This document shows, one piece after another, positions 4,266 through 22,608 of a DNA stretch of 33,589 nt. The notes beneath the pieces are model-generated. The model saw nothing but the letters and a program-made list of their open reading frames with translations, searched no databases and had not been told where the DNA came from. Position 1 is the first letter of the stretch. Each line of letters opens with the position of its first letter. Origin of the DNA: a virus. The translations under genes were made by a program, and so were the position numbers. Where the stretch lies: positions 1 to 33,589 of the IMG/VR virus record IMGVR_UViG_3300042914_005450, one strand, 5' to 3'.

Positions 4266-4287
4266 ATCAATGGAACATCTGTAATTG

Positions 4288-4314
4288 AAAAGAGGCTTAA
4301 TGCCTCTTTTTTTT
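4288..4314 (+). terminator. Rho-independent terminator
   Basis: A perfect 9-bp stem AAAAGAGGC / GCCTCTTTT with a TTAAT loop and a T run. It separates the winged-helix-like gene from the defence operon. Confidence 0.88.
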
Positions 4315-4485: not shown

Positions 4486-5064
4486 ATGTCAAAAACACAT
4501 TTAAGTAATATATCGAAAGTTGATTCCGGCAAGTCATTTAGGCAACGAATCGAAGATGAACCCAATGGTAATTGTTTAGTGATTCAAATGAAAGACATTT
4601 CAAATGAACAACTCACTATTTCTGGCTCTCCTCATTCTATTCTAATAGACGAAATGAATTCAAGTCAGTTGCTCGCATCTGGTGATATTTTGTTCATGGC
4701 AAAAGGGAATAACAACTTCGCGGTGATGTACGCCTCTGACCAGCCTGCTGTAGCGGTTTCACTATTCTTTATCATCAGACCTAATCGTGACAAGGTTGAT
4801 CCTGAATATTTGACATGGTATCTTAATGCGCCAACTGCTCAATCTTACTTTCACGAAAACAGACTGGGAGCATCAGTAGGTAATATTCGCAAAGAAGCGC
4901 TGGAATTATTGGAGGTTGAGCTCCCTTGCATGGATAGACAAAAGCAAATTGCTAAGTTGAACAATCTACTCCGTAAAGAAAAGGCATTAACAAATGAGTA
5001 CATTGAAAAGAAAGAAGTGTTCTTGAATCAAACTATGATGAATTTAATAAATCAAAACCTATGA
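4486..5064 (+). CDS. Half-length type I specificity (HsdS-like) protein
   Basis: A 192-aa protein resembling one target-recognition domain plus one conserved helix of a type I S subunit; a normal HsdS has two of each. It has the beta-rich TRD pattern with ASGDILFMAKGNN near residue 65, a PEYLTWYLNAPTAQSYF helix, a GNIRKEALELLEVELP strand and the P..D.QKQIA motif, then a long coiled helix to the C-terminus. The family role is DNA sequence recognition for an HsdM complex, where half subunits can dimerise. It is the first gene of a tightly packed 13.7-kb operon. Its stop overlaps the next start by ATGA. It differs in sequence from both TRDs of the full HsdS at 7482. It could instead be a specificity module serving the two unknown proteins that follow. 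Confidence 0.7.
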   Translation: MSKTHLSNISKVDSGKSFRQRIEDEPNGNCLVIQMKDISNEQLTISGSPHSILIDEMNSSQLLASGDILFMAKGNNNFAVMYASDQPAVAVSLFFIIRPNRDKVDPEYLTWYLNAPTAQSYFHENRLGASVGNIRKEALELLEVELPCMDRQKQIAKLNNLLRKEKALTNEYIEKKEVFLNQTMMNLINQNL

Positions 5065-5576
5065 GGCTAGATGTAAGTTATAAAATTGTCAATAACGAAT
5101 TTGACAAGGAATATGCCGAAGAATACAACGAGGGAGAGCCTGGTCCTGGCAACATGAAATATCATGAAACCTGGAAATATCGAATTGAAAAAGTAAAGCA
5201 ATTTTCACAAGAAGAAAATGCAACTCTTGAGATTATAGGTATTAACGAATCAGGAGGAAAACATACCTTTCAAATTAACAATCTTTTCCACTTAAGCTGT
5301 GAATTGAATAACGGAAGCTTTGAAGATTTTTATGTCTCAAATGAGCTGATTAGAAACACGCACGCAACAAAGGACAAGAAAAGTAACAATAGATTTTATT
5401 TCTATTTAGACGTAAAAAATCCTTTCGTAATCATCAATGACACCAGTTATATTGTCTCTGATGATTTACCAGAGGAATTAACCTCTCAGAAATGGGAATC
5501 ACTGACGCTCCCTACAGAAGTAAAAAGTAAACTAATTGAAAAATCAGGCTCGATTGCTCGACGCTTTAATGACTAA
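5061..5576 (+). CDS. Hypothetical protein in RM operon
   Basis: A 171-aa protein translationally coupled to the half-HsdS gene by an ATGA overlap. I do not recognise it. It is hydrophilic, with an acidic Glu/Asn-rich N-terminus and a beta-rich middle (ATLEIIGINESGG, FHLSCELNNGSFEDFYVSNELI, RFYFYLDVKNPFVIIN). There is no membrane segment, signal peptide or nucleotide-binding motif. Its fixed position between a specificity protein and hsdM suggests an accessory role in the restriction system, but nothing in the sequence shows what that is. Confidence 0.6.
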   Translation: MRLDVSYKIVNNEFDKEYAEEYNEGEPGPGNMKYHETWKYRIEKVKQFSQEENATLEIIGINESGGKHTFQINNLFHLSCELNNGSFEDFYVSNELIRNTHATKDKKSNNRFYFYLDVKNPFVIINDTSYIVSDDLPEELTSQKWESLTLPTEVKSKLIEKSGSIARRFND

Positions 5577-5580
5577 AATT

Positions 5581-5955
5581 ATGGAAACTACAACCAACCC
5601 TCATGATGTTTCACCATGGCTCAAATTGAGTTTTTTAAGCAATACACATAAAGCCGTAATTGAATTGAGAGAACCAATTATGGTAAACGGTGAAAAACTT
5701 AACCAAATCGCATGTTCGATAACAGCACCGAAAACTGAAATGAAGTCGTTTAAAAAAGCTGACGGTGGAATAGTAATTCTTTCACAAGTAAAAAGTTGGC
5801 CATTTATTCTTTACAGAGAATTGAATGCTTATAATAATTCGAAGGATGATGCGTATAAGCAATCATTTGTAAAAAGCGTTGATCATGAAAATGTATTAAG
5901 TATAACCTTGTATGACCTAAATGGAAATATTGTATTAAAGCAAGAAAGCAACTAA
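5581..5955 (+). CDS. Hypothetical protein in RM operon
   Basis: A 124-aa protein starting at the ATG four nt after the previous stop. In-frame ATGs at 5536 and 5569 lie inside the previous gene and are less likely. The leader (TAAAATTATGGAAAC) closely resembles that of hsdM (TAAAAATATGGAAAC). No family is recognised. The sequence is a small, probably beta-rich globular protein (KAVIELREPIMVNGEKLNQIACSI and IVILSQVKSWPFILYREL). The gene ends four nt before hsdM. Function unknown. Confidence 0.55.
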   Translation: METTTNPHDVSPWLKLSFLSNTHKAVIELREPIMVNGEKLNQIACSITAPKTEMKSFKKADGGIVILSQVKSWPFILYRELNAYNNSKDDAYKQSFVKSVDHENVLSITLYDLNGNIVLKQESN

Positions 5956-5959
5956 AAAT

Positions 5960-7480
5960 ATGGAAACGAAAACAAAACCAACAACAGACGAAATAAACGC
6001 GGCCTTATGGTCTGCATGTGATAGCTTTAGAGGATCTATCGATTCGCAGGGATACAAAGATTATATCTTGGCGTTCTTGTTCTTTAAATACCTAAGTGAT
6101 AAGTACCGGGATAAGTACAACGAGTTCAAAATGCTATATGGTGAAGATGAAGAACTGATTCAACGTAAGTTGAGCAGAGAACCCTTTATTCTACAAGAAG
6201 ATTGCACCTTTGAATATGTGGTGGAGAACAAAAACGATCCACAACTTGGTCAGTTCTTGAACAAAATATTTGAGAAAATTGAGGATGACAACAAAAAGAA
6301 ACTAGGTGGTGTTTTTGGTGATTTGGATTTCAACTCTAGTTCTAAATTGGGCGACACAAAAGACCGCAACCGTAGACTAAAAAACCTCATAGAAGATTTT
6401 GATAAACCTAAGTTGGATTTCCGACCCTCTGTAATTGGAACGGAAGATATTATTGGAAACGCTTACATGTATCTCATTGAACGATTTGCAGAAGGTGCTG
6501 GGAAGAAAGGCGGAGAATTTTTTACGCCACATGAAATATCTGTATTGTTGGCCAAGTTGATGAAACCAGAAACAGGTGCTAGAATATATGATCCTACCTG
6601 CGGGTCGGGTTCTTTATTGATAACAGTTGCAGAAGAAGTACCTTTTAAGAAGGGGACTTCAATAAGAGATTGTTCATTATACGGACAAGAAAGCAATGGT
6701 GGAACCTGGGCTTTGGCTAAGATGAATATGTTCTTACACGAAATGGATGCTGCTCAAATTGAGTGGGGCGATACCATTAATAACCCGAAACTGATTGAAG
6801 GCGATCACTTAATGAAGTTTGATGTGGTCGTTGCAAATCCCCCATTTTCGCTGGATAAGTGGGGACATGATAGTGCTTCTGAAGATGTGTACAAAAGATT
6901 TACGAGAGGTGTACCACCAAAAACTAAAGGCGATTACGCTTTCATCTTACACATGATAGATTCTGCGGTTGAAGGAAGTGGTAAAGTGGGTGTGATTATT
7001 CCGCATGGTGTTTTGTTTAGAGGAAGTACCGAACGCACCATTCGTGAAAATTTAATTCGTGAAAACCTATTGGAAGCGGTGATTGGCTTACCGTCTAACT
7101 TGTTTTTTGGAACGGGAATTCCTGCTGCTATCTTGTTGTTCAACAAAGGAAAAAAGCACAAAGATGTTTTATTTATCGATGCGAGTAAGGATTTTGAATC
7201 CGGTAAAAAACAGAACAAATTACGTGCACCACACATGCAGAAAGTGATGGATGCTTTTAATGACTTCCAAAGCATTGAGAAGTACGCTCATCGTGCAACG
7301 TTTGAAGAAATTGAAGGTAATGATTTTAACTTAAACATACCACGCTATGTAGATACGTTTGAAGCAGAAGAAGTGGTGGATTTGAAACAGGTGCAAAGAG
7401 ATATTGAAACACTTGAGACAAATTTAACCAAGGTGAAAACGGAGATTAAAAATTATTTACAAGAATTAGGCTTAAATTGA
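5960..7480 (+). CDS. hsdM: Type I restriction-modification DNA methyltransferase subunit HsdM
   Basis: A 506-aa HsdM of normal length. The N-terminal helical HsdM_N domain (about 10-150) includes LWSACDSFRGSIDSQGYKDYILAFLFFKYLSDKY. The N6-adenine methyltransferase domain follows, with the FFTPHEIS entry motif near residue 188, the SAM-binding motif DPTCGSGS at 211-218, and catalytic motif IV NPPF at 293-296. The C-terminus ends in a coiled helix, as expected for contact with HsdS. It transfers a methyl group from SAM to adenine in the sequence set by HsdS, protecting host DNA. All key residues are present, so it should be active. It is followed one nt later by hsdS. Confidence 0.95.
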   Translation: METKTKPTTDEINAALWSACDSFRGSIDSQGYKDYILAFLFFKYLSDKYRDKYNEFKMLYGEDEELIQRKLSREPFILQEDCTFEYVVENKNDPQLGQFLNKIFEKIEDDNKKKLGGVFGDLDFNSSSKLGDTKDRNRRLKNLIEDFDKPKLDFRPSVIGTEDIIGNAYMYLIERFAEGAGKKGGEFFTPHEISVLLAKLMKPETGARIYDPTCGSGSLLITVAEEVPFKKGTSIRDCSLYGQESNGGTWALAKMNMFLHEMDAAQIEWGDTINNPKLIEGDHLMKFDVVVANPPFSLDKWGHDSASEDVYKRFTRGVPPKTKGDYAFILHMIDSAVEGSGKVGVIIPHGVLFRGSTERTIRENLIRENLLEAVIGLPSNLFFGTGIPAAILLFNKGKKHKDVLFIDASKDFESGKKQNKLRAPHMQKVMDAFNDFQSIEKYAHRATFEEIEGNDFNLNIPRYVDTFEAEEVVDLKQVQRDIETLETNLTKVKTEIKNYLQELGLN

Positions 7481-7481
7481 T

Positions 7482-8642
7482 ATGGAATATCCAAAAGAAT
7501 GGAAGGTAAAATCATTTGAACAACTTTTTGAGTTTAAGAATGGTGTGAATTCGGATAAATCAAGTTATGGTGAAGGTGGTGTTAAATTCATTAATGTCAT
7601 GGAAATCATTTATAATGACTACATCACATTTGACATGATACCTGGTGCTGTAAAAATTAGGGAAGACCAAAAGGAATTATACTCAGTAAAAAATGGGGAT
7701 ATTTTGTTTAATCGAACCTCTGAGACAACTAACGAAATTGGATTATCTGCAGTATATAATGGCAATGGAGAAGTAACTTTTGGCGGTTTTGTTATCAGAG
7801 GAAGACCAAAAAGTAAAGAAATTAATAATGATTTCAAACGGTACTGTTTTAGGGCGGATTATGTTCGAAAACAAATCATAGTTCGAGGGCAAGGAGCAGT
7901 TCGTTCAAACATTGGACAGGCCGATTTAAGTTCTGTAAAAGTTGCCATTCCACCAATGATTGAACAACAAAAAATAGCAACTATCCTAATTAAATGGGAT
8001 GAGTTAATTGAATCACAGACAAGACTTATTAAAGCCAAAGAAAAACAGAAAACTAGTTTAATGCAGAAATTACTAACTGGTGAGGTGAGGTTTCCAGGGT
8101 TTGACGATGAGATCGATTACACGTTATTGGAGGAGGTTTTAGATTACGAACAGCCAACAAAGTATATCGTAAAATCAACTGAATACTCTGCTGATTATCC
8201 TACGCCAGTGTTAACAGCTGGTAAAACTTTTTTGCTCGGATATACAAATGAATTAGATGGGATTTTTAAGGATGATTTACCTGTAATTATTTTTGACGAC
8301 TTTACTACAGCAAATAAGTTCGTTGATTTTCCCTTTAAAGTAAAATCGTCCGCAATGAAAATATTAAAGCCTAAATCAAGTGATATTAACATTCGCTATA
8401 TCTATGAAATAATACAAACCCTATGGTTTGCTCCAACTGATCATAAAAGATATTGGATTTCTGAATATAGTCAATTAGAAATTCCTTTACCAAGTAAAGA
8501 AGAACAATTTAAAATCGCAGAATTTGCTACCTCATTGGAAATTGAACTTCAATCCTTAAAAGATGAATTAGATTCGATAAAACTTCAAAAGAAAGGATTG
8601 ATGCAGCAGTTATTGACCGGGAAAATTAGAGTGAAGGTATGA
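7482..8642 (+). CDS. hsdS: Type I restriction-modification specificity subunit HsdS
   Basis: A 386-aa two-domain S subunit. TRD1 occupies about residues 1-160, followed by the first conserved helix region (P.IEQQKIATIL..WDELIESQ...EKQKTSLMQKLLTGEVRFPGF, about 160-206). TRD2 (about 210-340) precedes the second conserved region, SKEEQFKIAEFA..., ending in LMQQLLTGKIRVKV. The protein reads two half-sites on DNA and scaffolds two HsdM and, for restriction, HsdR. Its stop overlaps the ATG of the next gene (ATGA). A diverged copy of the LTGKIRV end occurs 420 nt later as an isolated scar, showing that this junction has been rearranged. Confidence 0.92.
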   Translation: MEYPKEWKVKSFEQLFEFKNGVNSDKSSYGEGGVKFINVMEIIYNDYITFDMIPGAVKIREDQKELYSVKNGDILFNRTSETTNEIGLSAVYNGNGEVTFGGFVIRGRPKSKEINNDFKRYCFRADYVRKQIIVRGQGAVRSNIGQADLSSVKVAIPPMIEQQKIATILIKWDELIESQTRLIKAKEKQKTSLMQKLLTGEVRFPGFDDEIDYTLLEEVLDYEQPTKYIVKSTEYSADYPTPVLTAGKTFLLGYTNELDGIFKDDLPVIIFDDFTTANKFVDFPFKVKSSAMKILKPKSSDINIRYIYEIIQTLWFAPTDHKRYWISEYSQLEIPLPSKEEQFKIAEFATSLEIELQSLKDELDSIKLQKKGLMQQLLTGKIRVKV

Positions 8643-9061
8643 AAGTAAAAGGATTACACAGTGTAGCCTCCAATTCGGGATTACTTAAACCAACTTCTGG
8701 AAGAGTAACAGAAACCGATGGAAATACAACACGATACATAAAAGCTGAATTTGATTGGATAGAAATTAAAAAAGGAAGATACATCCATGATGGAACTTCT
8801 CACCCACTTCGCGCAGGTGATGAAAAATACTACAAACGAATGTACTGTTTAGAACATGATGACAGAGTGGTTTATTGGCTCGATACCTTCGGTAAGCATT
8901 CAAGTAATCATGGTCACCATGTCAGTTTTTCATGGCGTGAGCATCAAACATTCCTTTGGCAACAAAATGATCATTGGCTTCAAAAGGAAGAAAATGTGCG
9001 TTATATCGTGAATGTGGTTTTTCTTGTTATTGGAGTGGTTATCGGTATTAAACAATTGTAA
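8639..9061 (+). CDS. Small protein with C-terminal membrane helix
   Basis: A 140-aa protein coupled to hsdS by an ATGA overlap. Residues about 1-118 are soluble and rich in His, Tyr and Trp, including a HSSNHGHH stretch (87-94) and SFSWREHQTFLWQQNDHWLQ. Residues about 121-138 form a hydrophobic helix (YIVNVVFLVIGVVIGI), so the protein is likely tail-anchored with the bulk in the cytoplasm. No enzyme family is recognised. The gene sits between the hsdS end and the second hsdS-tail scar, so it may be a cargo gene brought in with an hsdS allele. A membrane-linked accessory or effector role is possible but unproven. Confidence 0.6.
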   Translation: MKVKGLHSVASNSGLLKPTSGRVTETDGNTTRYIKAEFDWIEIKKGRYIHDGTSHPLRAGDEKYYKRMYCLEHDDRVVYWLDTFGKHSSNHGHHVSFSWREHQTFLWQQNDHWLQKEENVRYIVNVVFLVIGVVIGIKQL

Positions 9062-9062
9062 T

Positions 9063-9131
9063 ATGAGAAGAAGACTGGTTTTTAATGAAGGGCTTATTCA
9101 GAAATTCTTAACGGGTAAAATTAGGGTATGA
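9063..9131 (+). pseudogene. hsdS 3'-end remnant (scar)
   Basis: A 22-codon frame opening with ATG and ending in FLTGKIRV plus stop. It matches the final residues of the intact HsdS (LTGKIRV preceded by a GL..Q helix end), with similar but diverged nucleotides. The LTGKIRV end is characteristic of HsdS, and no HsdS coding sequence precedes it here. It therefore looks like what is left of a second hsdS after recombination or gene insertion. Its stop overlaps the ATG of the protease gene (ATGA), just as intact hsdS overlaps its own downstream gene. Confidence 0.75.
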
Positions 9132-9943
9132 TAATTAAAGACAAAATGAGAGAACAAATTGAGGCAACTTCGACATTAGCTCAAAAGTATACCTGTCAGT
9201 TATTCTACAATCTTAAGAGAATTGGAAGTGGCTTCTTTATTCAAATTGACAACGAATATTTTCTCATTTCTGCTGCTCATGTTCTCGAACTCCAATTCAT
9301 AGAAGGGATGAAATTTCCTAATGGAAAAGAACTCGTAGCAATTAATGGACATCTTTTGATAACCATGCCTCCCGAAGGGTTTTCAAGAACATCTGACAAA
9401 ATTGATTTTTCTGTAGTCAAGTTGAATCAAGAAACGGTTGATGAAGTCAAGAAACAATTTGAGTTCTTACCGGCAGATCATATTGAGATTGATCATAAGC
9501 CACAAGAAGCCCCACAGTACCTTTTGTTTGGCTATCCTAATGACTGGACAACTGTAATCGCTGAAAAAGAGCAGATTATCCCTAAACCACTTATCATGCG
9601 AACGAAGATGATTGATATAGATACTATCAACTTGGAAAGCTATGAAAAAGGGTCAAAATTTGCAGTTGAATTTGATCCATTAAAGTTCCAAAGTGATGAT
9701 GGCGATTTTCAAAAGAAACTACCTAATCCAAAGGGAATGAGTGGCTCTGCCTTATGGTACATTCCATTCAAAAAATTTGTAGAATCAGGTGAGGTCGAAA
9801 TTAAATTGATTGGATTGGTTACAGATTATCATGGAGGAAGAGACAACGTAATTGCCGCCACAAGTATTTCGGTTATCACTAGAGCTATTCGAGATAAGTT
9901 GAAAGCAAATAATAAAGAATTGAAGATAAAAACAAATAATTAA
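9128..9943 (+). CDS. Trypsin-like serine protease
   Basis: A 271-aa protein with a complete chymotrypsin-fold triad signature: GSGFFIQI then SAAHVLE (His51), DKIDFSVVKL (Asp93) and the nucleophile motif GMSG (Ser205). There is no signal peptide or membrane helix, so it should act in the cytoplasm, unlike the usual exported trypsin-family enzymes. No PDZ domain is present. It is coupled to the hsdS scar upstream and abuts the SEC-C gene with no gap. In this operon it is a candidate effector or processing enzyme activated by its neighbours; that is inference. A second member of the same family is encoded at 26191-26982. An alternative start is the ATG at 9146. Confidence 0.8.
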   Translation: MIIKDKMREQIEATSTLAQKYTCQLFYNLKRIGSGFFIQIDNEYFLISAAHVLELQFIEGMKFPNGKELVAINGHLLITMPPEGFSRTSDKIDFSVVKLNQETVDEVKKQFEFLPADHIEIDHKPQEAPQYLLFGYPNDWTTVIAEKEQIIPKPLIMRTKMIDIDTINLESYEKGSKFAVEFDPLKFQSDDGDFQKKLPNPKGMSGSALWYIPFKKFVESGEVEIKLIGLVTDYHGGRDNVIAATSISVITRAIRDKLKANNKELKIKTNN

Positions 9944-11227
9944 ATGGACATTTCTATCACTATAGACAAATCAACTTTTCAAATGCTTAGCTATCCTGAG
10001 TTATTGAGATTGAGTAGTTATTACAAACATAATATTGCTCCTGTTTTGGTAATGGAAATAATGGGAGACCTTAAAAAAGAAGTGACTGATGGAAAGACTC
10101 CAAGCGAAGAACGTGTAAAGGATTTTGCAAAAAAGTTATTCCCGGTTCACACTAGTGTTAATAGCTACTACAGAAACTTAGTGAAAGGTGAGTTAATGGG
10201 TCGTGGGGTTACATTTGATGGACGACCTCATGTTGATGTTGAAAAGATAGTTCAAGCGGAGGATGGGTCTAAAGGATTCGTTATTCAAGAGACACAAGAA
10301 GAAAAATCAATCTATAAATGGAAAGCCGGAAACTTCAGCGAAGCAGACAAAGAGCTTTCTGAACTTTGGCGAACAATAACTACTCAAGAAAATCTACTTA
10401 AGAATTTACAGAAGATACTTCAATCAAACAAAAATGGAGAAAAAATAAGAAACACTAAGGAATTAAATGATAAGGTTGAAGCCATCCTAAACGATTATGA
10501 CAAACAGGATAGTCTCTTAGTTTTTCTAATCGATAATTACGGGGAAAATGAAATTGATGGCGGAGCAATCTTTGAAAGATATTTGATTGAAGGCAGGCCA
10601 CTTCTTAAGGATTTTGCGCCTTACGCAGCACATTGTATAAAAGTTGACCTTTTATTTCATTACGGATTAATGCATGAAGTGATTGGTACAAGACCAACTA
10701 ATCGAGTTGACCTAGAATACTTATACTACTTACCATTTTGCAACATCTTTACTTCAAACGATAAACTTCATAAGTTACTTGCACCATTACTTATTAGAGA
10801 AGATCAAAAGTTTATTATTGGTCAAGAACTTAAAAATGACTTTAAAAACATTGTTGAACACCTTGAATCTGGTGGAGATGAATTGATGAAAAAGCATGCC
10901 CATGAACCCCCAATAATAGAGTCATCTTTGACCTTTCAACTATGGAAAGAGTATTTTGGTTATCCCCAAAAAAGTAATCTAAACAGAAAGATGACTGACC
11001 AAGATATGGAGTACATGAAAAAACAAATGGACAAATTCATCCGAGCTTCTAAAGGTGAAAAAGTAGAATTTGAAGAAGGCGAAGAAGAACAATTCATTGT
11101 CAAAACATCTTGGTTAAGCAAAGATGATCCTTGTTATTGCGGAAGCGGAAAAATAATAATAGAATGCTGTATGACAAACGACCAGTTTAATAAACAAAGT
11201 GAAAACCCGAATAAACCTCAATTATGA
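9944..11227 (+). CDS. SEC-C zinc-motif protein
   Basis: A 427-aa protein. The C-terminus has a SEC-C metal-binding motif, DPCYCGSGK...CC (Asp395, Cys397, Cys399, Cys408, Cys409). The last ligand is Cys rather than the common His-type ending, and the KKYKKCC consensus is changed to KIIIECC. The N-terminal 380 residues are not recognised. They include a charged helical middle (about 140-190) and a conserved-looking block, DLEYLYYLPFCNIFTSNDKLHKLLAPLLI (about 268-296), which could be a nuclease-like or PIN-like core, but I cannot confirm this. SEC-C motifs often mark protein-interaction modules. The gene starts immediately after the protease stop and overlaps the Argonaute-like gene by ATGA, so the three are probably made in fixed ratio. 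Confidence 0.7.
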   Translation: MDISITIDKSTFQMLSYPELLRLSSYYKHNIAPVLVMEIMGDLKKEVTDGKTPSEERVKDFAKKLFPVHTSVNSYYRNLVKGELMGRGVTFDGRPHVDVEKIVQAEDGSKGFVIQETQEEKSIYKWKAGNFSEADKELSELWRTITTQENLLKNLQKILQSNKNGEKIRNTKELNDKVEAILNDYDKQDSLLVFLIDNYGENEIDGGAIFERYLIEGRPLLKDFAPYAAHCIKVDLLFHYGLMHEVIGTRPTNRVDLEYLYYLPFCNIFTSNDKLHKLLAPLLIREDQKFIIGQELKNDFKNIVEHLESGGDELMKKHAHEPPIIESSLTFQLWKEYFGYPQKSNLNRKMTDQDMEYMKKQMDKFIRASKGEKVEFEEGEEEQFIVKTSWLSKDDPCYCGSGKIIIECCMTNDQFNKQSENPNKPQL

Positions 11228-13518
11228 TGAAATTGAATTACTTTCCTATACAATTTGAATTTGAAGATTATCAAATAATTTCTGAGCCATACTCGGACGA
11301 CAGACTGAAAGAACTAAGGACTCAACATAACGATTCGTATTCATTTTTTAGGGATGGTGATTCTATTATAATATCCAACAAAAACGACGAGAGTTCTGTT
11401 TTGTCTGGTAAGGTTACCAAAAGGAATTTATTCGATAATTCAAATGTCTCATCTTCATTAATTAAGCATATTTTTTTTAGAACTTTTAAAGATCGTTTTG
11501 ATGGGTTTGTTCCTATCAGCTTTTATCCTTTTAAATTTTATTCAAGGCAAGACAAGGATGATCTAATCTTAAGTTATTTACCAGATGAACTAAAACACAA
11601 AATTTCATATAAAAAGCTTATTGAACTTGAATTAAGAGAGATTGTTATTAATGATGAGCGATCCTTTGCGTTTGTGATTAATATTCGCAGAAATTGGGTG
11701 TTTGAAAAAACCTGTCAAGATCTTTATAACGAAGGATTTGAACTAACAGGGTATGATGTTTTACACATTGATGTTCTTCCAGGACTTGACAATATTCTTG
11801 CTCCCAATGAGGATTATATTGGTACAATAATTAATATAGAAGGAGAGAGTGCAATAGTCAAAACCAACGAAGGCGAAGAATCCTATTTGCTACAAGACCT
11901 GTCAATTCGAAAGTCAAAACAAAACATTCAGTCCTACTTGCGCTTTTGCACATCAAAGGAAAAGTGTGAGGAAATTTTACTTGCTGTAAATAATGAAAGA
12001 ATTAAAAAACAAAACCCAGTTGAACAATTTAATGAAATTAAAAATATAGCAAAACATCTTTTTACAAATAATGGATCAACAATTCTTTTTCAAAATAGAG
12101 ACGGATTTTGCTTTAGAGTCAGTAATGAACCGATGGATGTCTCTAACAAAATTCAACTTAAAACACCCACTTTTATTTTTGATCACGCTGGAACCAAGAA
12201 AAATAGCGTAAATGCTGATATGGGTTTATCAAATTTCGGCCCCTATGACAGTATAAGTTTCGACATCAAAAAACCAAACATTTTAAGTATCTGTCACAGG
12301 TCCAAAAGAGGAAATTTCACAAAATTTCTTTCGGATATTTCTGAAGGACTTGCAGACTCAAAATATTTTAAAAAAGGTCTGTTAAAAAAGTATGAACTCC
12401 AAGAAATTAATTTTGACATACAAGAGGTGTCAGATTATCGAGTAGAAGATTACTTCTCAGTCATAAGTAGTTATGAAGGTGAGAAACCTCATATTGCAAT
12501 TATTGAAATACCAGACAGCTTTAGGGAACTCAGGGATAATGAAAATCCTTACTATAAGATAAAGGCAAAGCTACTCTCTTTGGAGATTCCAGTTCAATTT
12601 GTAAGAAGTTCGACAGTTTTGAAGTATAACGAATACATTTTAAACCCTCTGGCTCTTCAGTTATATGCTAAATTAGGAGGGACTCCATGGGTTCTTCCAG
12701 CACAGAGGTCCGTAGATCGAGAAATTGTAATAGGCATAGGCCATAGTTGGGTACGAAGCAACCAATACAAAGGAGCTGAAAGTAGTCGTGTTGTAGGAAT
12801 AACAACATTCATGTCTAGTGATGGTCAGTATCTTTTAGGAGATAAAGTCAAAGACGTTGCTTATGAGAATTATTTTCAAGAATTATTGAGTAGTTTAAAA
12901 TTATCTATTAGAAGACTTTCCGAAGAGTATGCCTGGCAAAATGATGATACTGTTCGACTGATTTTCCACATTTTTAAACCAATAAAGAATATTGAGTTTG
13001 ATGTCATTAGTCAATTGGTAAAAGAAATTTCTCAGTTTAAAATCAAATTTGCATTTGTTACAATAAGTAAAAAACATCCGAGCATCCTATTTGACACTAA
13101 TCAACAAGGTGTAACAAAATGGGGTACGAATGAAAAAGTTGGGCAATACATTCCTATAAGAGGAAACAATGTGTTTTTAGACGAAGAAACAAGCATAGTT
13201 CAGATGCTCGGCGCCAATGAATTGAAAACATCAAAACATGGAATGAGTACGCCAATTCAAATTAAAATTCGAACTCCTAAAGGAAACTACAGTGACCCAG
13301 ATTTGCGTGACATGATGTTTTATGATTTAACATACATAACCCAACAAATTTTCTCATTTACCTATTTATCATGGAGAGGATTTCTTCCTAGGGAGGAACC
13401 AGCAACAATGCTGTATTCAAACCTTATATCTCGTTTGTTAGGTAAAATGAGAAGTATACCAGAATGGGATGCTGACAAATTGAATTATACTTTAAAAAGG
13501 AAAAAATGGTTTTTATAG
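11224..13518 (+). CDS. Prokaryotic Argonaute-like protein, PIWI active site degenerate
   Basis: A 764-aa protein with the length and C-terminal layout of a long pAgo. The N-terminal/L1 part contains PISFYPFKFYS. A small beta domain near 200-235 (DYIGTIINIEGESAIVKTNEGEE) is in the PAZ position. The MID domain holds PHIAIIEIP, then Tyr443-Tyr444-Lys445, Gln458 (IPVQF) and Lys483 (AKLGGTPW), the pattern that grips a guide 5' phosphate. The PIWI domain starts IVIGIGHSW, where Gly506 replaces the first catalytic Asp. The HRDG-type motif is FHIFKP (581-586), again without Asp. The C-terminal PATMLYSNLISRLLGKM helix is typical of PIWI, without the His/Asp. So guide binding is plausible and slicing is unlikely. 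It overlaps its neighbours on both sides. Family assignment is by motif reading only. Confidence 0.75.
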   Translation: MMKLNYFPIQFEFEDYQIISEPYSDDRLKELRTQHNDSYSFFRDGDSIIISNKNDESSVLSGKVTKRNLFDNSNVSSSLIKHIFFRTFKDRFDGFVPISFYPFKFYSRQDKDDLILSYLPDELKHKISYKKLIELELREIVINDERSFAFVINIRRNWVFEKTCQDLYNEGFELTGYDVLHIDVLPGLDNILAPNEDYIGTIINIEGESAIVKTNEGEESYLLQDLSIRKSKQNIQSYLRFCTSKEKCEEILLAVNNERIKKQNPVEQFNEIKNIAKHLFTNNGSTILFQNRDGFCFRVSNEPMDVSNKIQLKTPTFIFDHAGTKKNSVNADMGLSNFGPYDSISFDIKKPNILSICHRSKRGNFTKFLSDISEGLADSKYFKKGLLKKYELQEINFDIQEVSDYRVEDYFSVISSYEGEKPHIAIIEIPDSFRELRDNENPYYKIKAKLLSLEIPVQFVRSSTVLKYNEYILNPLALQLYAKLGGTPWVLPAQRSVDREIVIGIGHSWVRSNQYKGAESSRVVGITTFMSSDGQYLLGDKVKDVAYENYFQELLSSLKLSIRRLSEEYAWQNDDTVRLIFHIFKPIKNIEFDVISQLVKEISQFKIKFAFVTISKKHPSILFDTNQQGVTKWGTNEKVGQYIPIRGNNVFLDEETSIVQMLGANELKTSKHGMSTPIQIKIRTPKGNYSDPDLRDMMFYDLTYITQQIFSFTYLSWRGFLPREEPATMLYSNLISRLLGKMRSIPEWDADKLNYTLKRKKWFL

Positions 13519-14396
13519 AAGAAAAACATAAATACTTGAATGAGATTCAAAGTCGACCAAAACTATATGCTTTGTCATGCTTACTTTGGGGGAATCCTAT
13601 TAACACAATTCAAGAAGAACTAAACGAGATTGATGAAATTTATATTAATTGCATTCAAGCTATAAAAGCAGACTCGATTGAACTTTTCAAGAAACAGTAC
13701 GAACTTATTTCAAAAAGGAAAGTAGTTGAAAATTCATCCGCGCCTTTTGTGCATGACGATTTTTTGATTTTTGTATTGATTGTTGGGGTTGTCAAATTTG
13801 AGCAAAATATGAATTGGTTAATCAACTTGGTACATTTAAAAGTGAAGAATAAAACAACAAATACCTTTGAAAATTTACTCACAAAAAATTATCAAAGTAA
13901 GACAAATAATCAGTCTATAGTTTTAACATTTCTATTTATCATAAATAAATCTAATATTACAAATGATTTACTAAAAGATTCTTACCAAGACATAATTGAT
14001 CTAAACCAGACATTCGCAGATGAATTCTTAAAAATATGTCACTATAGAGCTTTTGATTTGATTTTTCAATATAAAATTCCAAGAGATTCTGATCAAATTG
14101 CAAGACTTATGCTTTTTGAAGATAGGTTTAAAAAAAGAATTACTGTATTCAGCTATATCTCATACCACCTTATTCTAATCGTTCTTCTCGTATTCTCATA
14201 CTGGATTTTGCAGAAATTACCTGCTGAATGGAAATCTAATATTAATGATGTAGGGATTTTAATCGGTATAGCAGGTGTTGGATTGATAGGGAACCTATTA
14301 CCGAAACTAAAGAAAAACTTTAGAGATTTGAACCTAAGTCTTTTTGGTTACAAAGGAGAAGATAATTACAAATCAAATAAGAATATCGAAGGATGA
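13506..14396 (+). CDS. Membrane protein with two C-terminal helices, putative effector
   Basis: A 296-aa protein whose ATG lies 13 nt inside the end of the Argonaute-like gene, so translation is coupled. Residues about 1-210 are soluble and helical, with a hydrophobic patch near 85-97. Two membrane helices follow at about 213-237 (FSYISYHLILIVLLVFSYWIL) and 248-268 (VGILIGIAGVGLIGNLLPKL), then a short basic tail. No family is recognised. Some inactive long-B pAgos are known to work with small membrane proteins that damage the membrane after target recognition, and this gene has the right position and topology for such a partner. That function is inference. It ends in an ATGA overlap with hsdR. 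Confidence 0.65.
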   Translation: MVFIEEKHKYLNEIQSRPKLYALSCLLWGNPINTIQEELNEIDEIYINCIQAIKADSIELFKKQYELISKRKVVENSSAPFVHDDFLIFVLIVGVVKFEQNMNWLINLVHLKVKNKTTNTFENLLTKNYQSKTNNQSIVLTFLFIINKSNITNDLLKDSYQDIIDLNQTFADEFLKICHYRAFDLIFQYKIPRDSDQIARLMLFEDRFKKRITVFSYISYHLILIVLLVFSYWILQKLPAEWKSNINDVGILIGIAGVGLIGNLLPKLKKNFRDLNLSLFGYKGEDNYKSNKNIEG

Positions 14397-17300
14397 CAAT
14401 GTACACAGAAATAAAAGACTCCCAAGAACCAGCATTAGTTTTACTTCAAAAACTAGGATGGCAATACATTTCACACGAACAAACAATTACAGAACGTAGT
14501 GAAATACTGAGCAATGTTGTATTGGAAAATATCCTGGAGCAACAACTTCATAAAATCAATTCCTACGAATACAAAGGGAGCTCCTATAAATTCTCGCAAG
14601 GCAATGTGCATGACGCCATTTACACCTTAAAGAATTTGCCAGATGAAGGTTTGGTGAAGACCTCTGAACGTTTATTTGATCTCATCAATTTAGGGAAGAG
14701 TTTTGAAGAGAATGTACACGGAGACAAGAAAAGTTTCAGCATGCAGTACATTGATTGGAACAATATTGAAAACAATGTATTCCACGTTACGGATGAATTT
14801 GTTGTACAAGGGCTCACGGAAACCAGAAGACCGGATTTAGTATTATTTATCAATGGTATTCCTTTCGTAGTCATCGAAAACAAACGCAGAGATAAGAAGG
14901 GTTCTACTAAAGAAGCCATCTCTCAATTCATCCGAAATCAAAAGAAAGAAGATGGTATTCCCAAGCTCTTTCATTTTTCACAATTATTAATTGCAGCACA
15001 GCCAGACGAAGTGATGTACGGTACCACCAACACCCCCGATAAATTTTGGGGTTTGTGGAAAGAACAAACTGAGATTGAAAAAGAGGTACAAGCTTTATTA
15101 ATTTCAACGGCTAATGGTCAACGAAGTGAAGATAGATTACCAACAGAACAAGACAGAATGTTGTACTGTTTGTGCAGACCAGAACGAGTATTGGAACTCG
15201 TATACAAGTTTTTAGTCTTTGATGGAAAAGTAAAAAAAGTAGCACGTTACCAACAATACTTTGCCGTTCAAAATGCCTTGAACAGGGTGAGCGAATTTGA
15301 TGAAGAAGAAAAACGTAAGGGTGGAGTAATTTGGCATACCCAAGGGAGCGGAAAGTCACTCACTATGGTGATGCTTGCCAAGTCTATTATTTTGGATAAC
15401 AAAATTAAAAATGCGCGAATCATTGTGGTTACAGATAGGGTTGAATTGGATAAACAAATCTTCGAGACCTTCCAGAAATGTGGTAAGCAACCAGTGCGTG
15501 CTAATAGTGGTAATCATTTAATTGAACTGGTACAAGAAAGCAGTGTAGAAATCGTCACTACAATAATTGACAAGTTTGAAACCGCATTGAAGCGTAAAGA
15601 TTTCAGAAACAAATCAGAGAATATTTTTGTGTTGGTAGATGAAAGTCACCGAAGCCAGTATGGTAAAAACCACGCCTTGATGAAGAAGGTGTTGCCAAGA
15701 GCCTGTTACATTGGGTTTACTGGAACGCCATTAATGAAAGAAGAAAAAAACACGGCAAACAAATTCGGTGGTTACATTGATAAGTACACCATAGATCAAG
15801 CAGTTATAGATGGCGCTGTTTTGCCGTTGTTGTACGAAGGAAGATCGGCAAAATTAACCGTAAATCAAGAACAAATAGATAGAGGTTTTGACCGTTTAGC
15901 AGAACCGTTGAATGAGTATCAACGAAAAGATTTGATGCAGAAATTCTCATCAATTACAGAGATTTACAAATCCCAACAAGTAGTAGAAGAAATTGCGTTT
16001 GATATTTCGGAACATTACTGCAAAAACTGGAAAGGAACAGGGTTTAAAGCGATTCTTGCCGTACCATTAAAAGATACAGCCATTAAATACCAAAAGTATT
16101 TTGAAGGTCAGACTAACCCCAAATTAAAAATGGATACTGCGGTTATCATTTCTGCTTCAGACACAAGAGTTGATCATGAAGAAGTGGAGGATGAAGTAAC
16201 CAGTGATGTGCAGCAATACTTTAAGAAAATTAATCAACGTCATGGTTCAGTTGAAGCCTTTGAGGAAAACGTAACCAACAAGTTTAAAGACTCGGATGAT
16301 GAGATTGAAATGCTCATTGTTGTAGGAAAACTACTAACAGGTTTTGATGCTCCAAGGTGTAATACATTATACATAGCAAAACCTTTGAAAGAACATGGAT
16401 TGTTGCAAGCCATTGCACGAGCCAATCGTTTGTATGAAGGGAAAGATTACGGATACATCGTAGATTATGTAGGTGTATTAGGTGATTTAGATAAGGCGTT
16501 AACTCAATACAGCGCACTTGAAGAATTTGATGAAGGCGATATTGCGAGTGCAATCCTAAAGATAGATGAAGAAATCAATAAAATTCCTCAGTATCATTCT
16601 GACGTGTGGGATGTTTTTAAAGATGTAAAGAACAAGCACGACATCGAAGAAATGGGTCGCTATTTAGCACCAAAAGATATACGCGATACATTCAGAGAAA
16701 AACTGATTGTCTTTGCCAAATCCTTGCAAGCTGGTATGGCTTCGGATGTCTTTTACAAGTTATTCAATGAGTACAGACAAATCACCTTCTTAAAAGATTT
16801 GAAGTTCTTTCAGAGCTTAAGAACCGCTGTTCAGATTCGTTATTCAGAAAAGATAGATTACAAAGAATATGAGGGACGAGTGCGTAAATTACTAGACATG
16901 CAAATTGGCGTTGATGGTATTGAGCAAACATCTGAACCGATTAATATTTTTAATGAAGAACTCTTCAAAAAAGAAGTAGAGCGTTTAACTGGTTCTGTTG
17001 CTTCTAAGGCGGATGCAATCGCATACAGAATGAAGAAAGTGATTACAGAGAAGATGGATGAGGATCCTATATTCTTCAAGAAGTTTGGTAAGTTGATTGA
17101 CGAAGCTATTCAGGCATTCATTGATAAACGAATCACAGAAGCAGAGTACCTAAAACAAATGTTGGAAGCAAGAAAGAATCTTGTTGAAGGAAGTTTTAGT
17201 GATGTGCCTGGCAACTTAAAAGGAAATCCAGAAGCTCGTGCATTTTATGGAATTGTAAAAGAAGTATTGAGTGGTGAGCTACCTCAGTCAAATTTAACAG

Positions 17301-17524
17301 AAGTGAATGACCAATTGGCTCAGGCAGGAATTGATCTCTCAGAAATCATACAACACTTAGTCATACGAGATTGGAAAAAGAATGATGACGTTCAAAAGCA
17401 AATGAAGAATGATGTTGAAGATTATCTGTTGGACAAACGAAAAGAGTTTGGCGTTGAGTTGAGTTTTACCCAATTGGATAAAATACTGGATGAAGTATTA
17501 AAGGTTGCTAGAAACGTATTTTAA
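14393..17524 (+). CDS. hsdR: Type I restriction endonuclease subunit HsdR
   Basis: A 1043-aa HsdR of normal length. The N-terminal PD-(D/E)xK nuclease has Asp148 (RRPDLVLF) and Glu162-x-Lys164 (VIENK). The SF2 translocase follows with Walker A GSGKS (318-322), DESH (416-419) in the Walker B position, GFTGTPL, and motif VI region LLTGFDAPRCNTLYIAKPL...ARANR. The C-terminal helical domain binds the HsdM/S core. It translocates and cuts unmethylated DNA using ATP. All key residues are present. The start overlaps the membrane-protein gene by ATGA; an in-frame ATG at 14399 is an alternative. In ordinary type I loci hsdR lies next to hsdM/hsdS, whereas here 5.8 kb of other genes come between. Confidence 0.95.
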   Translation: MTMYTEIKDSQEPALVLLQKLGWQYISHEQTITERSEILSNVVLENILEQQLHKINSYEYKGSSYKFSQGNVHDAIYTLKNLPDEGLVKTSERLFDLINLGKSFEENVHGDKKSFSMQYIDWNNIENNVFHVTDEFVVQGLTETRRPDLVLFINGIPFVVIENKRRDKKGSTKEAISQFIRNQKKEDGIPKLFHFSQLLIAAQPDEVMYGTTNTPDKFWGLWKEQTEIEKEVQALLISTANGQRSEDRLPTEQDRMLYCLCRPERVLELVYKFLVFDGKVKKVARYQQYFAVQNALNRVSEFDEEEKRKGGVIWHTQGSGKSLTMVMLAKSIILDNKIKNARIIVVTDRVELDKQIFETFQKCGKQPVRANSGNHLIELVQESSVEIVTTIIDKFETALKRKDFRNKSENIFVLVDESHRSQYGKNHALMKKVLPRACYIGFTGTPLMKEEKNTANKFGGYIDKYTIDQAVIDGAVLPLLYEGRSAKLTVNQEQIDRGFDRLAEPLNEYQRKDLMQKFSSITEIYKSQQVVEEIAFDISEHYCKNWKGTGFKAILAVPLKDTAIKYQKYFEGQTNPKLKMDTAVIISASDTRVDHEEVEDEVTSDVQQYFKKINQRHGSVEAFEENVTNKFKDSDDEIEMLIVVGKLLTGFDAPRCNTLYIAKPLKEHGLLQAIARANRLYEGKDYGYIVDYVGVLGDLDKALTQYSALEEFDEGDIASAILKIDEEINKIPQYHSDVWDVFKDVKNKHDIEEMGRYLAPKDIRDTFREKLIVFAKSLQAGMASDVFYKLFNEYRQITFLKDLKFFQSLRTAVQIRYSEKIDYKEYEGRVRKLLDMQIGVDGIEQTSEPINIFNEELFKKEVERLTGSVASKADAIAYRMKKVITEKMDEDPIFFKKFGKLIDEAIQAFIDKRITEAEYLKQMLEARKNLVEGSFSDVPGNLKGNPEARAFYGIVKEVLSGELPQSNLTEVNDQLAQAGIDLSEIIQHLVIRDWKKNDDVQKQMKNDVEDYLLDKRKEFGVELSFTQLDKILDEVLKVARNVF

Positions 17525-17526
17525 GA

Positions 17527-18228
17527 ATGGGAAATACAGTTAGTTACGGCACCACAAATATTAAGTATTCTGTTGAAAGGCGAAATAGAAAAACCCTAGC
17601 AATAGAAGTCCACCCCGACAATACGGTCTGGGTAATTGCCCCCATTGATGCTAACGATGAAGAGATTCAAAGTCGAGTAGAAAAGAAAGCACCATGGATA
17701 GCCAAGCAACAACGATTCTTTAATGGTCGTCCAGATAAAGTAACCCAACCTGAATGGGTTAGCGGTGAAAATATCTTTTACTTAGGACGTCAATACCGAT
17801 TGAAAATCCATGAAGGCGAACCAGATATAAAATTAGCCGGCAAGTATCTGAATGTAACCGTTAAGGACAAAGAAGATAAAAAGAAGATTTCGGATCTTGT
17901 TAACACCTGGTACTTACAACACGCCAGAATAAAGTTTGAAGAAAGAATGGCACTACTCCATCCTATTCTTGAACGCGAGAACTTGAAGATGAATTCTTTG
18001 ATGATTCGGAAATTAAACAAACGTTGGGGCAGTTGCACAGCAAAGGGAAACATTGTTGTGAACGCAGATTTAATCAAGGCCCCCATCAACTGTATCGACT
18101 ACGTTTTGATTCATGAGCTTTGCCATTTGAAGTATCATGACCATAGCAATAAATTTTGGACGCTATTAAATAAGTACTGCCCGAATTGGGTGAAGACGAA
18201 GGAGAGATTGGAGAATTTTAATTTTTGA
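17527..18228 (+). CDS. YgjP-type (DUF45/M48-like) metallopeptidase
   Basis: A 233-aa protein of the YgjP/DUF45 family. Its N-terminal beta region ends in WI..Q and the YLGRQYRLKI motif. The catalytic part has LNKRWGSCTAKGNIVVNADLI, then HELCH (His196, Glu197, His200) and His206 (HDHSNKFW) as the likely third zinc ligand. Members of this family are frequent companions of type I hsdR genes; the substrate is not established. The gene starts two nt after the hsdR stop, so it is the last tightly linked gene of the operon. All metal ligands are present and it should be an active peptidase. Confidence 0.88.
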   Translation: MGNTVSYGTTNIKYSVERRNRKTLAIEVHPDNTVWVIAPIDANDEEIQSRVEKKAPWIAKQQRFFNGRPDKVTQPEWVSGENIFYLGRQYRLKIHEGEPDIKLAGKYLNVTVKDKEDKKKISDLVNTWYLQHARIKFEERMALLHPILERENLKMNSLMIRKLNKRWGSCTAKGNIVVNADLIKAPINCIDYVLIHELCHLKYHDHSNKFWTLLNKYCPNWVKTKERLENFNF

Positions 18229-18580: not shown

Positions 18581-18614
18581 AAGCACTTCGGCATTTTGTC
18601 GAGGTGCTTTTTTT
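18581..18614 (+). terminator. Rho-independent terminator, end of defence operon
   Basis: Stem AAGCACTTCG / CGAGGTGCTT (10 bp with one G-U pair) and a 9-nt loop, followed by seven T. It is the first strong terminator after 4314, consistent with one transcription unit from about 4.4 kb to here. Confidence 0.85.
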
Positions 18615-18763: not shown

Positions 18764-19345
18764 ATGACGAAAAGACAAACTACAACTTCCGGCATGGACT
18801 GGAATACAATGCTCGGATTAAGCGACCGAATAAAAAGAGATGAAGAATACAGGGATTATCTTCTCATAACCATGGGATGCTACTTTGGTTTACGAATCGG
18901 CGATCTACTCTCTATAAAATGGTGTGATGTTATAAATAAAGAAGAACTCGTCATACAAGAATCCAAAACCAAAAAATCAAGAACCATTTCCTTCAATGAA
19001 AAAGTAGTCGAGGCAATCAACCTTTGTTCAAATGAACTTAGGTCGAAAAATTCACATTGGAATAGCGAATACGTTTTCGCGAATCGATGGGGCGGTCAAT
19101 TGTCGGTGTCTTATATTAATAAGCGCCTCAAAGTAATTTTCGGGAAGTACAACGTGCGTGTTCAAAATCCAAGTTCTCATACCTTGCGGAAAACATTCGG
19201 AAAACGCATATATGAAATGGATGGTCAATCTGATCGTTCACTAATATACTTGTCCGATATTTTCGGTCATAGTTCAACTGCTATAACACGATCATATATC
19301 GGAATCACACAGGATCAGATTAAAGATGTGTATTTGAGCTTATGA
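18764..19345 (+). CDS. Minimal tyrosine recombinase (catalytic domain only)
   Basis: A 193-aa site-specific recombinase that retains the full catalytic set: Arg44 (FGLRIGD), a Lys in the KTKKSR beta-hairpin near 70, His139 and Arg142 (HTLRKTF), His169 (FGHSS) and the nucleophile Tyr178 (RSYIG). Only about 30 residues precede the catalytic domain, so the usual N-terminal core-binding and arm-binding domains are missing; typical integrases have 300-400 residues. It should be able to cut and rejoin DNA, but its target specificity may come from another protein. It opens region 3 and overlaps the next small gene by ATGA. Confidence 0.85.
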   Translation: MTKRQTTTSGMDWNTMLGLSDRIKRDEEYRDYLLITMGCYFGLRIGDLLSIKWCDVINKEELVIQESKTKKSRTISFNEKVVEAINLCSNELRSKNSHWNSEYVFANRWGGQLSVSYINKRLKVIFGKYNVRVQNPSSHTLRKTFGKRIYEMDGQSDRSLIYLSDIFGHSSTAITRSYIGITQDQIKDVYLSL

Positions 19346-19527
19346 AAACGAAGGAAGAATTAAAAAGAGAAGTAAGCCGCTTGGCCAAGCGAATTAAAGT
19401 ACAAAGGGCGAAACTCTGGTCGCTTGTTAAGATGGAAGAATTTGAGGAAGCAGAGCTTGTTAAGAATGAGATCCAGGTCTGCCAAAAACAATTGCTTGAT
19501 ACTTTGATTGGTAGCGAAAATAATTAG
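19342..19527 (+). CDS. Small coiled-coil protein
   Basis: A 61-aa, highly charged, all-helical peptide coupled to the recombinase by an ATGA overlap. The pattern W.LVKMEEFEEAELVKNEI resembles a UVR-type helical hairpin (YE.A...R..I), but the match is weak. It could assist the recombinase, since it is made with it and that enzyme lacks its own N-terminal DNA-binding domain; this is inference. Confidence 0.5.
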   Translation: MKTKEELKREVSRLAKRIKVQRAKLWSLVKMEEFEEAELVKNEIQVCQKQLLDTLIGSENN

Positions 19528-19558
19528 GAGTAGATTTGAACCTATAAATAGGTTCTAT

Positions 19559-20350
19559 ATGAAGTTCAAGAGTGCAAATATTCCAAATGAAGAAGGTAAA
19601 GAATTCGATATTAATGAGTTTAATCGTGTTCTAATATTTCCTGATTTAGTTTCATACTCACCTAGTGAAGTCAAGATTTTGGTTGAAATAAGAATAAGTG
19701 AGTTAGAATACCAAATAGATCAGCTTGGACTTATGGAAGGTATTGATTTACTTTCAGAAGAAGAGTATCATGTTTTAAATTTGGATTTTGCTAATAGGAT
19801 GAAGTCCGATCCTTTGCCTTCTAATGGATACAATGGGTTATTGTTGGATTGGGTATCATTCGAAAAAACAAGACTGATTGACAAACTTATTATTCTAAAA
19901 CCAGAAACAAAAAAAACAAAGGAAATTGCTAGAGAAACCTATTCCGTTGCTAATAATTTAGCTATAAAAAATTATGCTCATCTTGGGGATGATATTCTAA
20001 TTTTAAGAAATGTTTTACGTGATAATTTGTTCATCGATTCATCAACTAAAGCCAATGAATTTTCACGAATATTTTCTGAGAAGAATGTTGATTCAAAATT
20101 AATTTGGCAAGGAAGTCAAGCTGAACTCTCTTACTTGATTAAATCAATTATGCCGTGGTTGGTTACAAAACGTAATTACCTAAAAAGAACTGCTAAAATA
20201 TTTACGAAACCTGATGGGAGTTTGTTTGATTCAAGAAATATTGGCAACCCCAAAAGCGACATTCCAGTTGAACGGGAAAAAGTACTCCGTAAAGCGTTAG
20301 AACAATTTATCAGCAATATTGAATCAGAAAGAAGGCGACATACAAACTAA
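19559..20350 (+). CDS. Hypothetical Bacteroidota mobile-element protein
   Basis: A 263-aa protein from the ATG at 19559; the frame is open back to a TTG at 19508, within the previous gene. It is mostly helical. Near residue 195 it has SKLIWQGSQAELSYLIKSI, a motif type also seen in RteC-family and other Bacteroidota element proteins (compare LTWSLSKYDLVELILAL in the RteC at 28740). The rest is not recognised. It ends before a terminator 45 nt later and may be co-transcribed with the recombinase. Confidence 0.55.
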   Translation: MKFKSANIPNEEGKEFDINEFNRVLIFPDLVSYSPSEVKILVEIRISELEYQIDQLGLMEGIDLLSEEEYHVLNLDFANRMKSDPLPSNGYNGLLLDWVSFEKTRLIDKLIILKPETKKTKEIARETYSVANNLAIKNYAHLGDDILILRNVLRDNLFIDSSTKANEFSRIFSEKNVDSKLIWQGSQAELSYLIKSIMPWLVTKRNYLKRTAKIFTKPDGSLFDSRNIGNPKSDIPVEREKVLRKALEQFISNIESERRRHTN

Positions 20351-20394
20351 GTAGTCTTTTCGTACTCCTTAACACTCAGCACAACACTCCGTAG

Positions 20395-20424
20395 CCCCCT
20401 ATAACATGCGTTTTAGGGGGTTTT
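20395..20424 (+). terminator. Rho-independent terminator
   Basis: Stem CCCCCTA / TAGGGGG (20395-20401 and 20414-20420) with a 12-nt loop region and TTTT. It ends the recombinase unit. A TACATTTG box at 20431-20438 fits the Bacteroidota -7 element (TAnnTTTG) for the following gene, but no clear -33 box was found. Confidence 0.7.
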
Positions 20425-20478
20425 CTGTTTTACATTTGTTGTGTAGATAAGAGTTAATAATTAAAAAAATAAATGGTT

Positions 20479-20802: not shown

Positions 20803-20817
20803 TATAATATAGAAATC

Positions 20818-20884: not shown

Positions 20885-20899
20885 CTAATTCAAATAATC

Positions 20900-21553: not shown

Positions 21554-21564
21554 AACCTATAACT

Positions 21565-22587: not shown

Positions 22588-22608
22588 AACAAACACTTTA
22601 TTAATCAA

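Follow-up and report, generated by a model that had tools for sequence, protein, structure and literature searches.

Background

The Elizabethkingia BPAM system (Song et al. 2023) lowered the viability of E. coli by about a thousandfold, and both the pAgo and its full-length partner were required for this, as given in the available part of the report (PMC10620215). In the same part, cells also died without other plasmids, and a pull-down found no contact between the pAgo and its partner (PMC10620215). In a different locus, an M48 peptidase accompanies DarTG2, which occupies the interval from hsdS to hsdR, and the accessible portion of that article calls the site a potential recombination hotspot (PMC12255303). 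Protease-activated nucleases were acquired by Hachiman, AVAST, Lamassu and DRT, and canu is also named, in the section of the source at hand (PMC12799240).

Here we consider a type I restriction-modification (RM) operon in which an Argonaute, a membrane protein, a protease and a SEC-C protein are encoded between hsdS and hsdR. An initial annotation had proposed that these four genes are one module. Among the open-licence PMC papers found on pAgo with hsd or SEC-C and on SEC-C/PIN proteins in defence, none describes the present combination in its title or in the opening of its abstract. Embedding is reportedly the topic of a 2024 preprint by Payne.

Results

Organization of the operon

The window, i.e. 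the whole stretch of DNA that was analysed, is a virus-collection record of 33.6 kb (33,589 nt). When 20 window proteins were compared with PHROGs, amidase, ParB-like, DnaC-like and integrase families were matched and no structural virus family was matched at the thresholds used, so that "mobile element" is a safer label than "phage". The region 18764-33589 carries three integrase-type genes and genes for a C5 DNA methylase, a ParB-like protein, a DnaC-like protein and an amidase, together with an AbiEii gene.

A co-directional array extends from 4486 to 18228 and is flanked by two terminator-like hairpins (Table 1). Its order is: half hsdS, two small ORFs, hsdM, hsdS, ORF140, protease, PIN-SEC-C, pAgo, bAgaM, hsdR and YgjP peptidase. 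An S1-like gene ahead of hsdM is recurrent in many related hsd operons. The distances at the junctions (negative values are overlaps) are -4 nt for hsdS/ORF140, +66 for ORF140/protease, 0 for protease/PIN-SEC-C, -4 for PIN-SEC-C/pAgo, -13 for pAgo/bAgaM, -4 for bAgaM/hsdR and +2 for hsdR/YgjP. The operon is probably expressed as a single transcript; sigma-70-like sites were at chance level only, and the region of the 66-nt gap folded no better than its shuffles (z 0.60). The gene set and the coordinates of the initial annotation were confirmed, and both the nesting between hsdS and hsdR and the tight coupling to the hsd genes are borne out by the gene order and the junctions. Its count of four genes in this interval overlooked a fifth, ORF140, and its claim that all the junctions overlap or abut fails at ORF140/protease.

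Table 1. Features of the operon and of its flanks (window coordinates)
Feature	Position	Strand	Basis
Terminator-like hairpin, before the operon	4287-4311		consensus match only
Half-length hsdS-like gene, first of the operon	4486..5064	+	Pfam Methylase_S E 9.9e-10
hsdM, type I methyltransferase	5960..7480	+	PADLOC MTase_I E 5.5e-140
hsdS, specificity subunit	7482..8642	+	Pfam Methylase_S E 1e-19
ORF140, one hydrophobic C-terminal stretch	8639..9061	+	flanked by two hsdS 3' tail copies
Stray duplicate of the hsdS 3' end, between ORF140 and protease	9090..9128	+	motif scan
Probable trypsin-like serine protease	9128..9943	+	catalytic triad, profile match
PIN-fold protein (predicted), helical insertion, C-terminal SEC-C-type tail	9944..11227	+	AF2, PIN matches
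Long-B pAgo, guide-pocket residues kept, PIWI probably inactive, 764 aa	11224..13518	+	PADLOC pAgo_II E 2.7e-262
bAgaM-type membrane partner of pAgo	13506..14396	+	PADLOC Aga_Unknown E 3.5e-92
hsdR	14393..17524	+	Pfam SWI2_SNF2 E 3.8e-83, HSDR_N E 1.3e-38
YgjP-like metallopeptidase, last gene of the operon	17527..18228	+	Pfam PF01863 E 2.5e-60
Terminator-like hairpin, after the operon	18581..18609	+	consensus match only

The hsdS-hsdR gap as a cargo slot

In related operons the gap between hsdS and hsdR is a slot for cargo genes. An hsdR match with E <=1e-100 was present in 55 of 395 Bacteroidota genomes, and we took 29 operons, precisely 27 loci from among these hsdR matches plus L166 and L167. 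L204 and L211, in which hsdS was not found, were dropped from the slot count, leaving 27 operons to be scored. We considered the gap as filled if a same-strand ORF of at least 90 aa lay between hsdS and hsdR, and this was so in 25/27 operons, or in 23/25 without L166 and L167, which had been chosen for PIN-SEC-C. Of 91 mechanically called cargo ORFs, 90 were scanned with Pfam (one, labelled as a piece of hsdS, was omitted), with the hsdM-hsdS and hsdS-hsdR gaps pooled. The 25 leading Pfam families, out of 50, included RhuM (10), Fic (10), SMODS (5), AGS_C (3), DncV-like (3), DUF3800 (3) and SAVED (2), and, as singles, SduA, patatin, SLATT_4 and kinase proteins. In the window, the gap is occupied by tightly spaced known or candidate defence genes.

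In the 66 nt upstream from the protease gene, the hsdS 3' end is present as a stray duplicate, in which 33 of 45 aligned nt are identical to the genuine hsdS tail (8595-8633). For ORF140, which precedes it, Pfam, PADLOC, NCBIfam and PHROGs yielded nothing better than E 0.01. Three hsdS tails are interspersed among the cargo genes of L166 (8611-8649, 9068-9106 and 9937-9975), with DNA 80-86% identical. Extra tails were confined to the window and L166 in a strict motif scan of the window and the 29 hsd loci, a scan that misses many true tails, since 14 of the 29 loci had no tail motif at all. The extra tails suggest that recombination at the hsdS end may be a route by which cargo is loaded.

The Argonaute and its membrane partner

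The 764-aa protein and the product of the next gene are the known BPAM pair, so that the new multi-part pAgo arrangement proposed initially is, as regards pAgo and the membrane protein, one already described. The former had been annotated as pAgo-like with a dead PIWI, which the analysis upheld. In fact, its PADLOC pAgo_II match spans residues 2-764, the NCBIfam model ProtArgonAgoRhdb matches it as well, and its matches among solved structures include EcAgo 23wq (E 4.4e-75, residues 3-764) and 6d8a (E 6.4e-69), which we take to be RsAgo. All five aligned sequences share the guide-pocket residues Y443, K447, Q458 and K483. H507 and H582 occupy the positions that we take, from the presumed PIWI catalytic motif, for its first and second catalytic Asp, which supports, as far as residues can tell, a PIWI without activity.

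The partner had been described as a two-helix membrane protein. Hydrophobic stretches at about residues 211-240 and 246-268 agree with this, but the simple hydropathy scan also gave a further one at 78-99. Its family, Aga_Unknown in PADLOC, probably corresponds to bAgaM/og_100 and adjoins pAgo also in L156, L158 and L161. Matches to the pAgo with E <=1e-15 were present in 23 of 395 Bacteroidota genomes and were full-length in 6; three of these six have an Aga_Unknown partner, and the 13-nt overlap is identical in two. A pAgo relative with an Aga_Unknown-type partner is also carried by the Hymenobacter plasmid L004. The closest relative of the pair is that of L156, with a pAgo 63% identical to the one in the window. 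The phage collection contained no pAgo match. Viral contigs scanned with the single pAgo, the single PIN-SEC-C or the two-sequence alignment A2 gave no relatives, and those scanned with alignments A1 and A3 gave 5 and 3 loci, respectively.

Two observations concern the surroundings of these genes. The kwaA-kwaB (Kiwa) genes lie 350 nt upstream of the pAgo/bAgaM pair in L156 (7244-8634), and in L004, L005, L157 and L015 pAgo starts 43 to ~117 nt after restriction-like methyltransferase/helicase genes.

The PIN-SEC-C protein

The gene between the protease and pAgo had been annotated as encoding a SEC-C protein. Its CxC..CC tail is present and aligns with that of relatives, although the window copy scored worse than E 0.1 with Pfam SEC-C; the protein is, however, chiefly of predicted PIN fold, and its likely role changes accordingly. 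No Pfam family covers its body, and a PDB sequence search with the PIN-SEC-C profile gave nothing significant (best E 0.16), hence the fold is a predicted one. The AF2 model, obtained from a 64-sequence alignment, has a pLDDT of 92.3 and a pTM of 0.90. Foldseek alone gave no match with E under 0.001, and realignment placed PIN domains first: SMG6 2hwx (Z 8.7, 3.4 A over 137 residues), then PAE2754 (1v8o, 8.2), VapC4 (8.0), other VapC proteins (7.5 to 6.0), an exosome PIN domain (6.0) and Rae1 (5.1), where a best Z of 7-8 is common by chance arrangement without true kinship. PIN or PIN-like proteins fill all 26 top rows, the last at Z 5.1, and other folds appear from Z 4.1; PAE2754 and rows 16, 17, 19, 20 and 22-26 are those that we presume to be PIN or PIN-like. 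We assigned the PIN fold because the top rows are unanimous and the acids are conserved. Precisely, D8 and E38 are found in 62/62 letters of the alignment and D273 in 63/64, while D256, found in 64/64, was required by the search pattern that retrieved most members.

The protein is a candidate nuclease. In the model, the PIN core would comprise residues ~1-45 and 250-300, with the helical insertion between them. A degenerate pattern derived from three relatives retrieved 101 stretches in genome contigs. The SEC-C-type tail was present in 15 of 102 classified PIN loci (105 were given and 3 were unclassified), and PIN-SEC-C in 2 of 395 genomes, the centre genome itself included. Membership in the HamM-type nuclease-protease pairs was considered and rejected: these have an MBL fold, and the structures matched by the model are PIN domains.

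The protease

The trypsin-like protease of the initial annotation stands as probable. Its residues His51, Asp93 and Ser205 are invariant in six aligned sequences, the window copy included, and its profile matches SplE 5mm8 (E 0.0011); but Pfam Trypsin_2 was reached only at E 0.038 and the AF2 model, built from 3 sequences and too poor for searching, has a pLDDT of 44, so that the fold is no more than probable. A second trypsin-like protease is encoded on the minus strand of the window (26191-26982); it is seemingly solitary, 27% identical to that of the operon, and adjoins an integrase gene. Family members in L009, L010 and L011 also look solitary. In L235, a family member overlaps the end of a gene that is nuclease-like by eye, matching PADLOC PD-T7-5 at E 5.3e-8 and no Pfam family.

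Co-occurrence of the four genes

We considered 15 loci with pAgo relatives (4 plasmid, 5 viral-contig and 6 genome loci), some of which end early on one side: L007 begins 924 nt before the gene and L156 stops ~480 nt past the partner. A profile search of their ORFs of at least 100 aa found PIN-SEC-C or the protease of the operon in none of the 15. Conversely, of the 8 genomes in which a close PIN-SEC-C relative occurs, 7 gave no match to window-type pAgo at E 0.001, and the remaining genome had two distant pAgo matches. The closest relatives of PIN-SEC-C are two proteins, 64% identical, whose genes also occupy hsdS-hsdR gaps, with neither window-type pAgo nor protease: in L097 the gene is immediately 3' of hsdS and is followed by a DUF3800 gene, and in L087/L166 it is downstream of a TIR gene. 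The former operon, of a Cyclobacteriaceae hsd locus, carries a different pAgo (6756-8000; PADLOC pAgo E 8.9e-116, 25% identical to that of the window) 8 nt after YgjP, an arrangement also found in L126 and L167; PIN-SEC-C and some pAgo therefore share an operon there.

A second protease/PIN pair, with 28 nt between the two genes, occurs in Chitinophaga skermanii (L123). Elsewhere the SEC-C-bearing PIN genes are preceded by hsdS, a TIR gene or DUF4238 genes, the last at three loci, two of them near-identical. In sum, pAgo and bAgaM are a conserved pair, protease and PIN were seen together twice, and all four genes once. In the loci examined the four genes do not recur as a module, and their common coupling, as proposed initially, is unsupported; the neighbourhood survey that had been suggested found no conserved neighbours for the set, but did find the pAgo/membrane protein pair conserved.

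Discussion

We consider the locus as a type I RM operon in which BPAM and a protease/PIN pair form two separable cassettes for abortive infection between hsdS and hsdR, and we give this reading a probability of about 0.7. Comparison with relatives suggests that the extra genes were acquired separately, as backup defences, and are not the parts of a single new machine. The conserved pAgo/partner pair, a PIN-SEC-C separable from it in relatives, the filled slot and the protease/PIN pair of L123 argue for it, as do the precedents of DarTG2 in the hsdS-hsdR gap (PMC12255303) and of the protease-activated nucleases (PMC12799240), both within the available portions of those papers. However, the overlapping junctions from the protease to hsdR suit a coupled unit equally well, the PIN-SEC-C operon of L097 has its own, different pAgo 8 nt past YgjP, the protease/PIN pair is known at two loci while other PIN-SEC-C genes have different upstream genes, and the fold comes from a model for which Foldseek gave no E under 0.001, chance often producing best Z values of 7-8.

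In such stacked cassettes, restriction would act first, and the cassettes would act if the invader survives. The long-B pAgo, guide-loaded and cleavage-dead, may recognise nucleic acid of the invader and license bAgaM, which, if it is toxic here, would damage the membrane so that the cell is killed or arrested. PIN-SEC-C would be a latent effector of the RNase type, able to shut down the infected cell once released, and the protease, its likeliest partner here, may cut it and so activate it. Against such a sensing of invaders, the published BPAM also kills without other plasmids and the pull-down showed no pAgo-partner contact, in the part of the report available (PMC10620215).

The consecutive junctions of 0, -4, -13 and -4 nt would also fit one integrated four-gene system, in which guide-loaded pAgo would detect the invader and turn on the protease; the protease would in turn release the PIN-SEC-C nuclease, and bAgaM would serve as a second effector. 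Nuclease-protease pairs are indeed borrowed by unrelated defence systems, according to the accessible text (PMC12799240), and L097 combines a different pAgo with a 64% identical PIN-SEC-C in one operon. We regard this reading as unlikely: none of the 15 pAgo loci, including L156 with its 63% identical pAgo, has PIN-SEC-C or the protease, and 7/8 genomes with a close PIN-SEC-C have no match to window-type pAgo. The protease and PIN-SEC-C might by themselves be a two-gene pro-nuclease system that would add a second nuclease fold to the published nuclease-protease pairs, which we consider rather unlikely. The pair recurs in L123, the L235 protease-family member overlaps a nuclease-like gene, and a long insertion splits the PIN core in the model, active-site-blocking insertions being a hallmark of the published nucleases in the portion at hand (PMC12799240). 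Nevertheless, there are PIN relatives that are similarly long, and therefore have the insertion, but have no protease next to them, and the protease family members at 26191 and in L009, L010 and L011 look solitary.

It is rather doubtful that PIN-SEC-C is a PrrC-like guard, namely a latent RNase silenced by HsdMSR and freed when a phage blocks restriction, with the protease and pAgo as bystanders. The PrrC gene lies between hsdS and hsdR. PIN-SEC-C is right after hsdS in L097 and within the gap in L087/L166, and in L225 (5664-11278) a type III-like Mod-Res pair ends 50 nt before it. L225 is a contig of a viral collection, with phage-like genes by eye. In the part of the article available, PrrC is described as always accompanying a type Ic hsd locus, with the R-M protein keeping it silent (PMC3874168). 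RM-type genes were present in 4/15 SEC-C-bearing PIN loci and in 3/87 loci without SEC-C (Fisher p 0.008, with kinship ignored and locus lengths differing), and the counts were the same with RM queries taken from the tested loci or from elsewhere. On the other hand, in this same test 11 of the 15 SEC-C-bearing loci have no RM gene (3 of 105 loci being unclassified), and position weighs little by itself because hsd gaps hold many unrelated cargos. Very improbable, finally, is a three-tier system assembled in the hsd operon by hsdS-tail recombination, where HsdMSR would restrict and either guide-loaded pAgo or a blocked HsdMSR would trigger the protease, making the PIN-SEC-C RNase active, while bAgaM would open the membrane. 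We know of no earlier Argonaute system wired to proteolysis, nor of an earlier PIN-fold pro-nuclease in bacterial immunity.

With the stacked cassettes as the preferred reading, the locus points to a Bacteroidota hsd lineage in which the hsdS-hsdR gap is a standing slot for defence genes, and shows that a slot of this kind can harbour a BPAM-type Argonaute. The PIN fold with a helical insertion, sometimes with a SEC-C tail, defines a family without a Pfam model that is a testable candidate effector. If the protease activates PIN, proteolytic activation of nucleases in immunity would have arisen with more than one nuclease fold.

The BPAM Argonaute part was already known, and so was hsdS-hsdR cargo beside an M48 peptidase, in the available part of that study (PMC12255303). 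As in the published BPAM, within the accessible part of its description, pAgo is upstream of its membrane partner and PIWI is inactive (PMC10620215), but in the window the pair is nested in an hsd operon and has the protease and PIN-SEC-C genes directly upstream. PrrC, in the portion considered, resembles the putative RNase PIN-SEC-C in that its gene, of RNase type, sits in a type I hsd locus (PMC3874168), with an ATPase/ACNase architecture as opposed to the predicted PIN fold of the window protein. In the nuclease-protease pairs, a protease gene adjoins a nuclease gene within another defence locus, as do the probable protease gene and the candidate nuclease gene here; in the section of the source available, however, the published nuclease is of MBL fold and that of the window is PIN-like, so the window pair is no member and the likeness is an analogy only, and the published trypsin-like proteases are fused to a defence enzyme and downstream, whereas that of the window is separate and upstream (PMC12799240). 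The RptR-RMS-DarTG2-M48 island, as far as the available text describes it, shares with the window both the cargo in the hsdS-hsdR gap and a metallopeptidase gene after the operon, the cargo of the window being pAgo/bAgaM and protease/PIN instead of DarTG2 (PMC12255303).
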